A stretch of 63,740 bases of DNA from a candidate division WOR-3 bacterium. GTDB lineage: Bacteria > Hydrothermota > Tepidihabitantia > Tepidihabitantales > Tepidihabitantaceae. The notes under the pieces are model-generated. The model made no database searches, was not told the origin of the DNA, and worked only from the letters and a program-made list of their open reading frames with translations. The position numbers and the translations under genes are program-made. The stretch is from positions 1 through 63,740 of the forward strand of contig VGIR01000007.1 in NCBI GenBank assembly GCA_016867815.1, given 5' to 3'. Position 1 is the stretch's first letter. The number at the start of each line of letters is the position of its first letter. This document shows positions 10,374 to 63,165 of this stretch, in pieces.

Positions 10374-11303
10374 ATGATTACACGAGGCCCACGGACTGCC
10401 GGCGATGGTGTGGCGGGCGCGTGCGCACCGCCAGACCCGGGATCGAAGACCGCGGAGCGGGTGAACTGGTTCCACGCTGAAGCCTTCCTGAAGGAACTGA
10501 GACGCATCAGCATCTTCTGCGGCGGGTTCGGGTCGGGCAAGACCGAGGTCGCGGTCAACTTCACGCTGCGGATGCGGGAACTCGGACGCAGGGTGTCGAT
10601 TGCCGACCTGGACATCGTGAACCTCTATTTCCGCAGTCGCGAGGTGAGGGAGCAGCTACGGAGCCAGGGCGTCGAGGTGCTGATCCCGGGCGGGGCGCTG
10701 GCGAACGCGGACCTGCCGGTTATTGTGCCGGAGGTGAAGGGAGCGATTGAGCGGCGAGAGGACGGAGAACGACGGAACGGAGACTGCCACCAAGACACCA
10801 AGGCACGAAGAGGGCAAAGCTCGAATCAAGCGGAAGGCGAAGGGCGAAAGGCGAGTAGCGAGGGCCCCGTGGTCGTGCTCGACCTGGGCGGGGACCCGGC
10901 CGGGGCCAGGGTGATGGCTTCGATTGCCGAAGGTATGCGGCCGGAGGATTACTCGAGTCTCTTAGTGCTGAATTCGCGGCGGCCTTTCACGGCCACGGTG
11001 GAGGAGGCCGAGAGGATGATGGCCGGCATCAGCGCCGCAGCGGGAATCAACGTGGACCGCATCGTGGTCAACTCCCACCTGGTCGAGGAAACCACTCCGT
11101 CGGTCATCGAGGAGGGGATTGAGCTGGGCGAGGCGCTGGCAAGAAAGACCGGCGCCCGCATCGCCTTTGTGGCGGTGCAGCGAGCCATGCTCGACCGTTT
11201 CGCCGCGGACAAGTGCCGCTACCCGGTAATGGTCCTGGACCGGCTGATGCTGAAGCCGTGGGAGCGGTCGAACTGGATAGGAAAGTACCGGGTCCAGCAA
11301 TGA
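10374..11303 (+). CDS. MinD/ParA-like P-loop ATPase with inserted repeat segment
   Basis: A 309-residue ATPase of the CobQ/MinD/ParA class. It has a deviant Walker A GGFGSGKT at residues 50-57, a switch-like SIADLDIVNLYFRSRE segment (75-90), and VVVLDLGGDPAGAR (about 166-179) as the Walker B/A' region. It is encoded just upstream of a ferredoxin and the 2-oxoacid oxidoreductase subunits. Its role there is unknown; assembly or cofactor delivery is a guess. Residues 128-163 are low-complexity and encoded by short-period repeat DNA (10755-10862), inserted exactly between the helix after VPEVKGAI and the Walker B strand. The start is uncertain: ATG 10374 fits the promoter, while GTG 10461 would trim about 29 unconserved residues. 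Confidence 0.8.
   Translation: MITRGPRTAGDGVAGACAPPDPGSKTAERVNWFHAEAFLKELRRISIFCGGFGSGKTEVAVNFTLRMRELGRRVSIADLDIVNLYFRSREVREQLRSQGVEVLIPGGALANADLPVIVPEVKGAIERREDGERRNGDCHQDTKARRGQSSNQAEGEGRKASSEGPVVVLDLGGDPAGARVMASIAEGMRPEDYSSLLVLNSRRPFTATVEEAERMMAGISAAAGINVDRIVVNSHLVEETTPSVIEEGIELGEALARKTGARIAFVAVQRAMLDRFAADKCRYPVMVLDRLMLKPWERSNWIGKYRVQQ
10755..10862. repeat. Short-period repeat DNA inside a coding region
   Basis: Three phrase blocks follow each other: GGACGGAGAACGACGGAACG-type, CCACCAAGACACCAAGGCAC-type, and GGCGAAGGGCGAAAGGCGAG-type. The length (108 nt) is divisible by three and contains no in-frame stop, so the host frame is kept. The composition and periodicity match the intergenic repeats, not the surrounding gene. 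Confidence 0.75.
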
Positions 11304-11597: not shown

Positions 11598-12662
11598 ATG
11601 GCAAAAGTACTGATGAAGGGCAACGAGGCGATTGCGGAGTCGGCGATTCGGGCCGGCGGACTGGTCTATTTCTGCTACCCGCTCACCCCGCAGTCCGAGG
11701 TGGCGGAGTACCTGTCGCGCCGCATGCCCGAGGTCGGAGGGGCCTACCTGCAGGCGGAGAGCGAAGTGGCGGTGGTGAACATGGTCTACGGCGCGGCCGG
11801 GGCAGGAGCCCGAGCCTGGTCCACGTCGTCGAGCCCGGGCATCAGCTTGATGGTCGAGGGGATCAGCTACATTGCCGCGGCCGAACTGCCGGCGGTGTTT
11901 GTGAACATCGTCCGCGCCGGCCCGGGCCTGGGCGGCATCCTTCCTTCGCAGGGCGACTATCGTCAGGCGGTCAAGGGCGGCGGTCACGGCGACTACCGGT
12001 GCCTGGTGCTGGCTCCTTCCTCGGTACAGGAGGCGGTTGACATGATGCCTTTGGCCTTTGACCGGGCAGACCGGTATCGCGGTCCGGTGCTGGTTGTCGG
12101 CGACGGCATGATCGGTCAGATGATGGAGCCGGTTGAGTTCAAGGAACCGAACTTCCCGCCCCTGCCGCCCAAGGATTGGGCCACGACCGGAGCCAGGGGA
12201 CGCAAGCCGAACGTGGTCAATTCACTCCACCTGGCGCCGTCGGTCGAAGAGGAGCTCAACATCACGCTGGCGGCCAAATACGAGAAGATGAAGCGAGAGG
12301 AGGTCAGGTTCGAGGAGTACAACACCGACAAGCCCTACCGGGTCCTGCTCGTTGCCTACGGTACGACCGCCCGCATCTGCAAGACGGCGATAGCTCAACT
12401 TGCCGCGCAGGGCATCGCCGCGGCGCTGTTGCGGCCGATATCGCTCTTCCCGTTCCCGGATGCCAAGATACTGGAGCTGGGGCGCAAGGCCGAGTTCCTG
12501 ATGTCGGTCGAGATGTCCATGGGCCAGATGGTCGAGGACGTAGGCTGTGCCATGGGGCACGAGAAGCCGGTCTACTTCTTCGGACGTTCCGGCGGCATCG
12601 TGCCGTCTCCGGAAGAGGTCGTCACCGCGGTCAAGACCCGGCTGAATGGAGGCAAGTCATGA
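11598..12662 (+). CDS. 2-oxoacid:ferredoxin oxidoreductase, alpha subunit
   Basis: A 354-residue pyrimidine-binding subunit (KorA/VorB type). It carries the N-terminal [28 protein letters not shown] segment, the [33 protein letters not shown] core, and a C-terminal transketolase-like domain. The complex oxidises a 2-oxoacid with CoA to acyl-CoA, CO2 and reduced ferredoxin, or works in the reductive direction. Whether the substrate is 2-oxoglutarate or a branched-chain 2-oxoacid cannot be told from the sequence. GGGAG lies upstream, and the stop overlaps the ATG of the beta subunit. Confidence 0.9.
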
Positions 12663-13444
12663 AGACCCTGTTCAAGCGACCTGAGTCTCTCACCTTGGCG
12701 TCGACGCACTACTGCCCGGGCTGCACGCACGGCGTCATCCATCGGCTGGTGGCCGAGGTAATCGACGAACTGGGCCTGCGCGAGCGCACCGTGGGCATCG
12801 CGCCGGTCGGGTGTTCCGTGCTCGCGTTCAACTACTTCAACATGGATTTCCAGCAGGCCGCGCACGGGCGCGCCCCGGCCCTTGCCACCGGCGTCAAGCG
12901 GGCGAGGCCGGACCTCATCTGTTTCACCTATCAGGGCGACGGCGACCTGGCTTCGATCGGCATGGCCGAGATCATCCACGCCGCCAACCGGGGCGAGAAG
13001 TTCACGGTAGTATTCGTCAACAATGCCATCTATGGGATGACCGGCGGCCAGATGGCCCCGACCACGATGCCGGGACAGGTCAGTACTACCAGCCCCAAGG
13101 GCCGCGACGTGAAGGACGTTGGCTACCCGATACGGATGTGCGAGCTGCTTGCCAGCCTGCGCACCCCGGGTTTCATCGAACGCGTCGCGGTCCACACGCC
13201 GCAGCAGGTGGTGAAAGCCAGGCGCGTGCTCAAGACCGCCTTCGAACTGCAGCGCGACAACAAGTGCTTCACTTTCGTCGAGGTCCTTTCCACCTGTCCG
13301 ACCAACTGGGGAATGACGCCCTTCGACGCCACGAAGTGGCTGCAGGAGAACATGGTTCCCTACTACCCGGTGCAGAACTTCAAGGTCTTCGAGGAAGCTC
13401 CGGCCGGGGAGAAGCCCGCCGAAGCCGTGGGAAAGGCGGTGTGA
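12659..13444 (+). CDS. 2-oxoacid:ferredoxin oxidoreductase, beta (TPP) subunit
   Basis: A 261-residue thiamine-diphosphate-binding subunit. Hallmarks: [15 protein letters not shown] near residue 18, GIAPVGCSV, the TPP/Mg motif [24 protein letters not shown] followed by [18 protein letters not shown], and [11 protein letters not shown] near the end. The start ATG at 12659 overlaps the alpha stop (ATGA), so the two are coupled. The Pro/Ala/Glu-rich C-terminus is unremarkable. Confidence 0.93.
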
Positions 13445-13445
13445 G

Positions 13446-13994
13446 ATGCAGGTCGAGACGGTCTTCGCCGGTTTCGGTGGACAGGGAGTGATGCTTGCCG
13501 GCAAGTTGATGGCTGAGGTCGGCATGGAACTGGGAAAGGAAGTCGTCTGGCTGCCGTCGTACGGACCCGAGATGCGAGGCGGCACGGCCAACTGCACGGT
13601 CATCATCGGCGACGAGCCGATAGCCTCGCCGATTGTATCGAATCCCCGTGACACCGTGGTGATGAACCGGCCCTCGCTCGAACGGTTCTGTCCGACACAG
13701 CGCCCCGGCGGACTCTGTATCGTGAACACGTCGCTCATCACGGTCCGGCCGGACCGGAAAGATGTCGTCGTCGTCGATGTGCCGGCCAACCAGATTGCGA
13801 TAGACGCAGGTTCAGGCAAGGCCGCGAACATGGTGATGCTCGGCGCCTATGTCGGCGCCAGCGGACTCGTGCCATTCGACGCCGTGGTCGAGATGACCAA
13901 ACACGAGTTCGCCAAGAAGGCCACGCTGATCCCTCTCAACGTCAAGTGCCTGGAAGAGGGTTTCCGAATCGGAAAGGCCGGCGCCAGAGGGTAG
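13446..13994 (+). CDS. 2-oxoacid:ferredoxin oxidoreductase, gamma subunit
   Basis: A 182-residue gamma subunit (KorC type). It has the N-terminal FAGFGGQGVMLAGKLMAE glycine motif and WLPSYGPEMRGGTANCTVIIGDEPIASPI, both characteristic, and a C-terminal NVKCLEEGFRIG segment. It completes a delta-alpha-beta-gamma set for CoA-dependent oxidation of a 2-oxoacid with ferredoxin, typical of anaerobes. ATG one nt after the beta stop. Confidence 0.92.
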   Translation: MQVETVFAGFGGQGVMLAGKLMAEVGMELGKEVVWLPSYGPEMRGGTANCTVIIGDEPIASPIVSNPRDTVVMNRPSLERFCPTQRPGGLCIVNTSLITVRPDRKDVVVVDVPANQIAIDAGSGKAANMVMLGAYVGASGLVPFDAVVEMTKHEFAKKATLIPLNVKCLEEGFRIGKAGARG

Positions 13995-24998: not shown

Positions 24999-25128
24999 GT
25001 CCCTCAAGGTAAAATCCGAATGACGAATCCCGAATGACGACTGAAACCCGAATGGCGGAGAAGCCCGAATTGGTCATTCGAGCTTAGAGCTTGACTCGTC
25101 ATTCGCGCTTCGTGCTTCGAGCTTCATT
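24999..25128. repeat. Intergenic phrase repeat with inverted arms
   Basis: The left arm reiterates CGAATGACGAATC-like units (25016-25060); the right arm reiterates their complement, GTCATTCG and GCTTCGTGCTTCGAGCTTC (25072-25125). The element fills the complete gap between two genes and ends on the next start codon. No Shine-Dalgarno or consistent -10 is seen. Confidence 0.75.
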
Positions 25129-32658: not shown

Positions 32659-32755
32659 AACAGGGAGAGTGCTCCAGTGATCAAGTGGTCAAGAGATCCA
32701 GTGGAGAAACGGACCGGGGCACTAGACCACTGGAACACTGGGCCACTTGGCCACT
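32659..32755. repeat. Phrase repeat with inverted arms filling a gap
   Basis: Left arm GTGCTCCAGTGATCAAGTGG and on (32668-32704); right arm CACTAGACCACTGGAACACT and GGGCCACTTGGCCACTA (32719-32755). The arms are complementary in kind. The element spans the gap from the stop of the DUF2723 gene (which shares its last bases) to the hypA ATG. Confidence 0.8.
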
Positions 32756-40585: not shown

Positions 40586-40673
40586 TAGTGGACAAGTGGT
40601 CTAGTGGTCCAGTGCTCCAGTGTGGAACCTGCAACACTTGATCACTAGGCCACTAGATCACTCGACCACCTTC
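40586..40673. repeat. Phrase repeat with inverted arms
   Basis: Left arm GTGGTCTAGTGGTCCAGTGC (40596-40615); right arm CACTTGATCACTAGGCCACT and AGATCACTCGACCACC (40635-40670), complementary in type. It fills the space between the folP promoter and the rocD stop codon, and shares its phrase with hypA and 32659-32755. Confidence 0.8.
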
Positions 40674-62842: not shown

Positions 62843-63100
62843 AGGGAGGGCTCATCCCCGAGCTCAAGGGACCGCTCATCCCCGGACTCATGCCGGGGCT
62901 CATCCCCCAACTCAAGGGATAGCTCCTCCCCGGTCTCAAGGGGGGGCTCATCCCGGAGCTCAAGGGACCGTTCCTCCCCGGTCTCAAGGGAGGGCTCATC
63001 CCGGAACTCAGGGGACAGCTCATCCCCCAGCTCAAGGGGGGGCTCATCCCCCAGCTCAAGAGGGGGCTCATCCGTCAGCTCATGGGCCGGCTCTACCCCC
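62843..63100. repeat. 24-bp tandem repeat with exact 12-bp phase
   Basis: Units alternate CTCATCCCCCAG-like and CTCAAGGGGGGG-like 12-mers. From 62851 to 63094 every CTCA (or CTCC/CTCT/TTCC variant) falls on the same 12-nt grid, about 21 half-units, without one indel. On the minus strand it would encode DEPPLELG octapeptides in a frame open from 63102 to 62662; on the plus strand RGGSSPSS octapeptides. No Shine-Dalgarno or promoter was found for either, so coding is unproven. Confidence 0.85.
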
Positions 63101-63165
63101 ATCCCGCCCGCCGAACCGGGTCAAGTGCCGAATTGTCTGCAAATGGAGTCTCTTCCTGTACGTCT

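Follow-up and report, generated by a model that had tools for sequence, protein, structure and literature searches.

The ATPase locus

The window analysed here, a stretch of 63,740 nucleotides from a candidate division WOR-3 bacterium, carries a P-loop ATPase gene that adjoins, on the upstream side, the genes for subunits of a 2-oxoacid:ferredoxin oxidoreductase. The ATPase gene is interrupted, in frame, by blocks of short repeated phrases, and the features of interest are the following:

10374..11303, plus strand: P-loop ATPase gene, predicted SIMIBI (MinD-ParA-SRP) class (open reading frame, Pfam, AlphaFold2, Foldseek)
10521..10547, plus strand: Walker A P-loop GGFGSGKTE (sequence; invariant alignment columns)
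About 10752..10863, plus strand: lineage-specific in-frame insert, net +35 codons over the 8-residue loop of congener G116 (alignments; insert-free homologues)
About 10752..10783, plus strand: phrase block 1, CGGCGAGAGGACGGAGAACGACGGAACGGAGA, purine-rich (sequence; matches in loci L002, L005 and L008)
10788..10811, plus strand: phrase block 2, octamer array CACCAAGACACCAAGGCACGAAGA (CACCAAGA x3) (TRF)
10830..10854, plus strand: phrase block 3, heptamer array GCGGAAGGCGAAGGGCGAAAGGCGA (GCGAAAG x3.6) (TRF)
10869..10886, plus strand: Walker B strand VVVLDL, immediately 3' of the insert (AlphaFold2 strand 166-171; D170 invariant)
11598..13994, plus strand: 2-oxoacid:ferredoxin oxidoreductase subunits (open reading frames; Pfam POR_N, PFOR_II, POR)
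25070..25124, minus strand: copy of the phrase sentence that fills the ATPase loop of congener G117 (82% over 55 bp)

Within the oxidoreductase cluster, Pfam identifies a POR_N gene at 11598-12662 and a POR gene at 13446-13994, with one open reading frame in between. The ATPase itself gives only weak, sub-threshold matches to ParA and CbiA. Its AlphaFold2 model (mean pLDDT 73.5, pTM 0.74) retrieves SRP/FtsY GTPases in Foldseek, with E values down to 1e-7, Get3 and AF2382 also being among the matches, and this resemblance to SRP-type GTPases and Get3-like proteins indicates a SIMIBI-class NTPase. By modelled fold and invariant P-loop the host protein is therefore placed, at the level of the class, among the SIMIBI P-loop NTPases.

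The insert sits between the GAIE motif (E126, 10749-10751), which ends helix 119-126 of the model, and the Walker-B strand VVVLDLGGDP (residues 166-171). Residues 131-160 have pLDDT values below 50, the rest of the fold being well modelled, and the insert is predicted to be disordered. The original prediction had described three phrase blocks in a row ahead of Walker B, which are present as described, and an in-frame insert of 36 residues; the reading frame holds, and the size is a net gain of 35 codons (43 versus 8 residues), one codon off. The last part of block 1 is leader-like for block 2 (cf. ACCGGAGTCTTACC), its likeness to the intergenic leader being weak (leader score p=0.027). Since the segment is charged, purine-rich and predicted to be disordered, it could be regarded as an ordinary fast-evolving, low-complexity loop whose likeness to intergenic DNA is one of composition only. 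Period-7/8 arrays, however, essentially vanish upon local codon shuffling that keeps composition, which places the insert beyond chance.

Filled and empty loops among homologues

Loop length was compared in an alignment of 82 proteins, 79 of which lack the insert: 78 from a genome collection covering WOR-3, Zixibacteria, Myxococcota, Deltaproteobacteria, Planctomycetes, Cloacimonadota, Riflebacteria and Firmicutes, and one from congener G116. The loop measures 8-11 residues in all 79, and is filled only in three congeners, with 43 residues in the genome studied here, 65 in G114 and 35 in G117. The gap between the GA and LDLGG motifs is of 9 residues in 12 of 12 pattern-matching homologues of the same genome family, G116 included; a thirteenth, from G104, did not fit the pattern. 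The precise insertion that homologue alignment was expected to reveal is thus what is seen, and no homologue from a distant phylum, among the 79 without the insert, carries a conserved segment that matches it in length. That the insertion is lineage-specific and precise is near certain. Loop lengths also show no gradual spread from 8-11 towards 35-65 residues, which counts against an ordinary fast-evolving loop.

The inserts themselves are related, with 78% identity over 78 bp between the genome studied here and G114, and 90% over 48 bp between G114 and G117. A single gain in the common ancestor of these three species is the simplest history; it is likely, and not proven, because no ATPase match was obtained in G115 and G118 (both incomplete genomes) and support within the genus tree is weak, with inner nodes at 41-72%. 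An assembly artefact or contamination was rejected: inserts are found again in congeners assembled independently, UBA2258 among them, and the array-bearing loops of LipA, MltG and PrmC likewise recur in several genomes.

Relatives of the insert in the genome and genus

When the insert was searched against its own genome, 19 places besides itself were recovered. In a comparison pool of 1.6 Mb sampled from five congener genomes, the best relatives are L006 (74% over 85 bp), L008 (74% over 90 bp) and L002 (85% over 52 bp), followed by L003, L005 and L007 at 81-86% over 43-52 bp, so that the same blocks do occur elsewhere in the genome, as had been proposed, in six loci at 74-86% over 43-90 bp. 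Block 2 has 45 further copies in the genus sample, finds short matches of 94-100% identity elsewhere in its own genome, and is related to a dispersed intergenic hairpin element, namely to its left arm. The insert of G117 likewise matches dispersed loci, one of which lies inside the window (25070..25124).

The dispersed sequences that the insert resembles are intergenic, and the best relatives align across several insert blocks in the same order; the phrase order of block 3 is common to L006 and L008, and the real order of the four insert blocks ranks first among 24 permutations against the genus pool. This shared order favours copying-in, and argues against composition as the only basis of the resemblance. 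The search for a fixed donor locus found none, and with no more than 74-86% identity to the nearest dispersed relatives no single donor can be named.

Period-7/8 arrays and their shared lexicon

The insert belongs to a much larger population of arrays. In 457 kb of its genome, 94 period-7/8 arrays were detected (TRF score of at least 35), versus 1 in codon-shuffled sequence. Periods 7, 14 and 8 are strongly enriched in five of the five sampled congeners by a lag-match detector, and codon-shuffled sequence of all five gave no period-7 or period-8 arrays. Few such arrays turned up in the small samples taken from other WOR-3 genera and from Zixibacteria, Myxococcota and Deltaproteobacteria. A third period class, of 12 bp (and 24), is also in excess in a sample of the genome composed of the window and L119-L138 (55 TRF rows versus 13 shuffled), and a 24-bp tandem repeat of about 10 copies, AGGGAGGGCTCATCCCCGAGCTCA, lies near the end of the window (62843-63101); it is unlike the 7/8-mers.

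The vocabulary of these arrays is large: 328 arrays fall into at least 134 rotation/strand word classes, the largest of which has 11 members. The word pattern CAGAANNCAGAANNCAGAA occurs 84 times in the genome studied here, versus 1 for a reversed control, and 32-172 times per congener. Its distribution in the phylum is patchy (CAGAANNCAGAANNCAGAA is also present in G131, G139, G135, G120, G105 and G134), and it is nearly absent in 48 genomes of other phyla, save for one deltaproteobacterium with 22. The CAGAANN lexicon recurs outside the genus in G183 (the genome of L084, deltaproteobacterium Ww513), G014 and G015, in a dialect whose NN often ends in A (GA, AA), as it does in 0 of the 216 listed genus units. 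Shaping of the words by coding, through stop avoidance, was considered and rejected: non-coding words are not clearly stop-depleted (0.79/0.73 versus 0.73/0.77 when shuffled).

An alternative source of such arrays would be replication slippage alone, by which they would arise and grow in place in steps of 7-8 nt, with loops merely tolerating them and shared words reflecting shared sequence preferences. According to PMC4679880 and PMC4692102, which cite earlier work, heptanucleotides form the most frequent class of long SSRs in many bacteria, and a polymerase contact (footprint) of 7 nt has been proposed. Slippage easily explains those arrays that are perfect or near perfect, such as the CAAACTG x5 array in LipA of G118, and array length does vary at some sites. 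Neighbouring units, however, barely resemble each other more than distant ones do. Among CAGAANN neighbours, tested as a family, the NN positions agree in 0.149 of cases versus 0.139 at random in one sample, and in 0.176 versus 0.144 across 108 genus pairs (p=0.15); this near independence argues against nearest-neighbour duplication as the sole source. For period-7 arrays overall, where the other word families were tested in aggregate only, identity is 0.787 at one unit apart and 0.780 at three, and variants are common to the next unit in 0.299 of cases versus 0.266 for the unit after, a slight difference. Words also coincide between genomes about 6-fold more often than letter-shuffled ones (0.0089 versus 0.0015), and slippage would not account for a multi-block order common to the insert and distant loci. 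The unit data fit, by inference, a reshuffling of units between arrays.

Arrays inside genes

A strict screen of the 1.6 Mb, requiring an array within an open reading frame and coding signal on both sides, identified 64 in-frame intragenic arrays. The ATPase, which had been put forward as a second case of gene invasion, is accordingly one of dozens. Words of the non-coding arrays are used in 48 of 58 intragenic 7-mer arrays, versus 20% for letter-shuffled words, a 4-fold better fit to the intergenic lexicon that composition would not predict; together with the evidence given above, it leaves the purely compositional reading largely refuted and scarcely credible. Hosts in the genome studied here, identified with a less strict screen and by family searches, include LipA, MltG, PrmC, MnmG, a MEMO-AMMECR1 protein, RadC (at its N-terminus) and a metallo-beta-lactamase-fold protein. 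A 1120-aa UvrD/AddA-like helicase-nuclease open reading frame (L119:5899-9258, minus strand, G000:C1) carries six in-frame arrays with six different words.

Clean gains relative to array-free congeners were found in G117 (+8 aa before the VDVCGPICTPLDC motif) and in G114 (+10 aa before VVDDLGSG). In aligned orthologues the arrays occupy variable segments between conserved blocks, and their density per kb in coding DNA is 13- to 69-fold below that in non-coding DNA. Both observations are consistent with the further proposal that selection keeps only in-frame, loop-located events, which itself would be an inference from them.

Array-bearing loops recur in LipA and MltG of six genomes each and in PrmC of five, and at these sites the words differ between species. 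LipA has different words in one loop in six congeners, four of which share a loop length of 37 residues. PrmC has exactly 23 loop residues in each of five congeners with different heptamers, AGCTGTA-like in G116 and G117, AGCCAGA-like in the genome studied here and AGGCAGA-like in G114. MltG has 27 loop residues, with different words, in the genome studied here, G115, G117 and G118, and in another gene the array in one and the same loop has period 8 in G117 and period 7 in G116. Against family models, PrmC and MltG of the genome studied here measure 254 versus 251 and 306 versus 313 positions, near-equal lengths which suggest that the words took the place of loop sequence and did not make the protein longer. 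From constant length and changed words, rewriting of loops in place thus seems to occur as well in PrmC and MltG. The original formula, mobility or generation within genes, holds if its two terms are taken as alternatives, with shared phrase order on one side and in-place word change at PrmC and MltG on the other. Single 7-nt steps would frameshift LipA, MltG and PrmC, where words changed at constant length, and this further point makes slippage on its own an unlikely explanation.

Octamer hairpins and transposases

A different source of movement would be a transposase-mobilised hairpin element of the REP, RPE or MITE kind, moved for instance by a RAYT, of which the ATPase insert would be one half. 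Octamer phrases do form the arms of imperfect hairpins, which are dispersed and have a conserved leader: CACNAAGR octamers mostly follow a GGAGTCTTACC-like leader, a complementary arm lies within 110 bp in 21 of 46 cases, and the paired elements fold into hairpins (z -3.0 to -4.1) with a mismatch at regular steps. Long hairpins of this type, with a stem mismatch every 4 or 8 nt at the variable N positions, were noted at L132:11280-11385, L124:9965-10055 and L218:9980-10090, and opposite-strand octamer pairs typical of the intergenic hairpin class, AGTGGTCN / CACTNGAC, lie in the window at 32668-32755 and 40587-40662. The three-unit CACNAAGR pattern is found in at least 80 stretches of viral-labelled IMG/VR contigs (L253-L332; 106 in all), often as opposite-strand pairs about 40-60 bp apart, so the element occurs widely among uncultured microbes or their viruses.

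Each congener genome has 4-7 RAYT-type Y1 transposase genes (Y1_Tnp), and in-frame intragenic RPE and REP insertions are known (PMC10969869, PMC3733652). The insert of the window, however, resembles one hairpin arm only. It has no inverted repeat within or spanning it (the sole one found, 10892-10907, lies outside) and folds worse than its shuffles (z +1.75), while heptamer arrays lack common ends or a consensus. Neither a target-site duplication nor defined ends were found at the insert, where the empty site differs too much between species for a duplication to be judged. A hairpin or RNA element inside the ATPase gene was ruled out on the basis of the missing structure and of Rfam, in which neither the insert nor the intergenic hairpin region of L132 has a match. 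At four transposase loci inspected there were no flanking phrase hairpins, the only arrays in the vicinity, at L249, being about 600-700 bp away, and RAYT-driven REP mobility was rejected on these flanks. Among the Y1 transposases, noted at L247, L249 and L250, several are flanked by short motifs such as CGGGGACA...TTTAATT and GTCCCTAAAATAG, which are unrelated to the phrases. A reverse transcriptase as the copy source was ruled out for the genome studied here and G118, in which no RVT_1 domain was found, and no phrase-mobilising enzyme was found. Taken with the arguments on structure, these results make a transposase-borne half-element an improbable origin for the insert.

Comparison with known repeat systems

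The closest precedent is found in Geobacter metallireducens, for which the available text of PMC2700814 describes four-fold GGACCGG heptanucleotides in 49 copies within and between genes, opposite-strand paired octamers GTTGCTYN and five-fold MTYCTGA, and interprets them as regulator-binding or RNA elements, giving there no insertion history. Shared with the WOR-3 phrases are dispersed tandem 7-/8-mers with degenerate positions, located between and within genes, and octamers in opposite-strand pairs; the word MTYCTGA approximates the reverse complement of WOR-3 CAGAANN. As far as that text describes the Geobacter elements, the WOR-3 genus differs in its at least 134 word classes, its dozens of intragenic cases with empty sites, and its species-specific words at one site.

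RPEs and GTAG/CGTC REPs, in Rickettsia conorii and Opitutus terrae, enter unrelated genes in frame, DNA-repair genes included, and their inserts of 20-80 residues are tolerated, probably in loops or linkers (PMC10969869, PMC3733652). The 64 strict arrays resemble them in their in-frame entry into unrelated protein genes. In contrast to these fixed-consensus palindromes, tagged at one end, the ATPase insert is non-palindromic, has no fixed consensus and consists of degenerate 7/8-mers, and, unlike GTAG-type REPs, the phrases show no association with RAYT (Y1) genes at the four loci inspected.

Genome-wide tandem heptamers are known from Xanthomonas (GGGAATC) and Nostoc (GGGGA(C/T)T) (PMC4692102) and from Beggiatoaceae (TAACTGA; PMC4679880). 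They are mostly intergenic, with 7-11% intragenic in xanthomonads and more in Nostoc, where 68% are intergenic (PMC4692102). The WOR-3 arrays resemble these in keeping their positions while sequence and length vary, and resemble heptanucleotide SSRs at large in that 7-nt tandem units exceed chance genome-wide. Instead of one or few words per genome, however, they have a large shared lexicon and invade the loops of housekeeping genes, and, unlike slippage-type SSRs, their CAGAANN units do not look like copies of their neighbours. Bacillus tandem repeats of constant size and variable sequence (PMC8161180) likewise conserve unit length and not unit sequence; they belong to another phylum, have longer units (20-21 or 52 nt) and are mostly non-coding. 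A literature search with the phrase sequences gave no bacterial repeat paper among the matches listed, and the part of the literature covered held no published description of a large shared lexicon, of many conserved enzymes with empty-site comparisons, or of word change at constant length.

A proposed copying process that may rewrite protein loops

The explanation that we consider probable on balance is that dispersed 7-/8-mer arrays are spread by templated copying, with selection keeping in-frame loop events. The segment in the ATPase would be a dispersed, non-autonomous repeat sequence, a mosaic pieced together from short, degenerate tandem arrays of heptamers and octamers. It would have been copied into a surface loop with the frame intact, most simply in the common ancestor of the three species of a single WOR-3 genus that carry it, and would then have diverged in length and words in each of the three. 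Phrases would be spread and rewritten by short-tract templated copying between arrays, possibly through template switching or ectopic gene conversion via short anchors such as CAGAA. Copying of this kind would leave the 7/8-nt register intact and, where two arrays are equally long, the reading frame as well. Purifying selection would purge frame-shifting copies and those that land in the core of the protein, and the encoded peptide (RREDGERRNGDCHQDTKARRGQSS...) would be tolerated as a flexible, charged loop. The interpretation offered in the original prediction is supported by the analysis.

A wider process could be envisaged, in which words from the shared lexicon overwrite unconstrained DNA genome-wide, loops of essential enzymes included, with length and register kept, so that one protein loop would bear different 7-mer, or even 8-mer, words from species to species. 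This broader reading is doubtful; if true, it would amount to a concerted evolution of dispersed micro-arrays that diversifies protein loops without frameshifts.

The data suggest that dispersed repeat DNA can lengthen or rewrite protein loops. The genus thereby offers a natural experiment on how repeat DNA, selfish or passive, becomes protein, with filled and empty sites in conserved enzymes, a lexicon traceable between gaps and genes, and species-specific words in the same loop. The arrays also bear on why bacteria favour heptamers among their long SSRs. The near independence of CAGAANN neighbours speaks, in at least one word family, against slippage as usually invoked, and makes inter-array copying testable. 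Finally, the inserts affect the annotation, gene calling and alignment of proteins from metagenome-assembled genomes.
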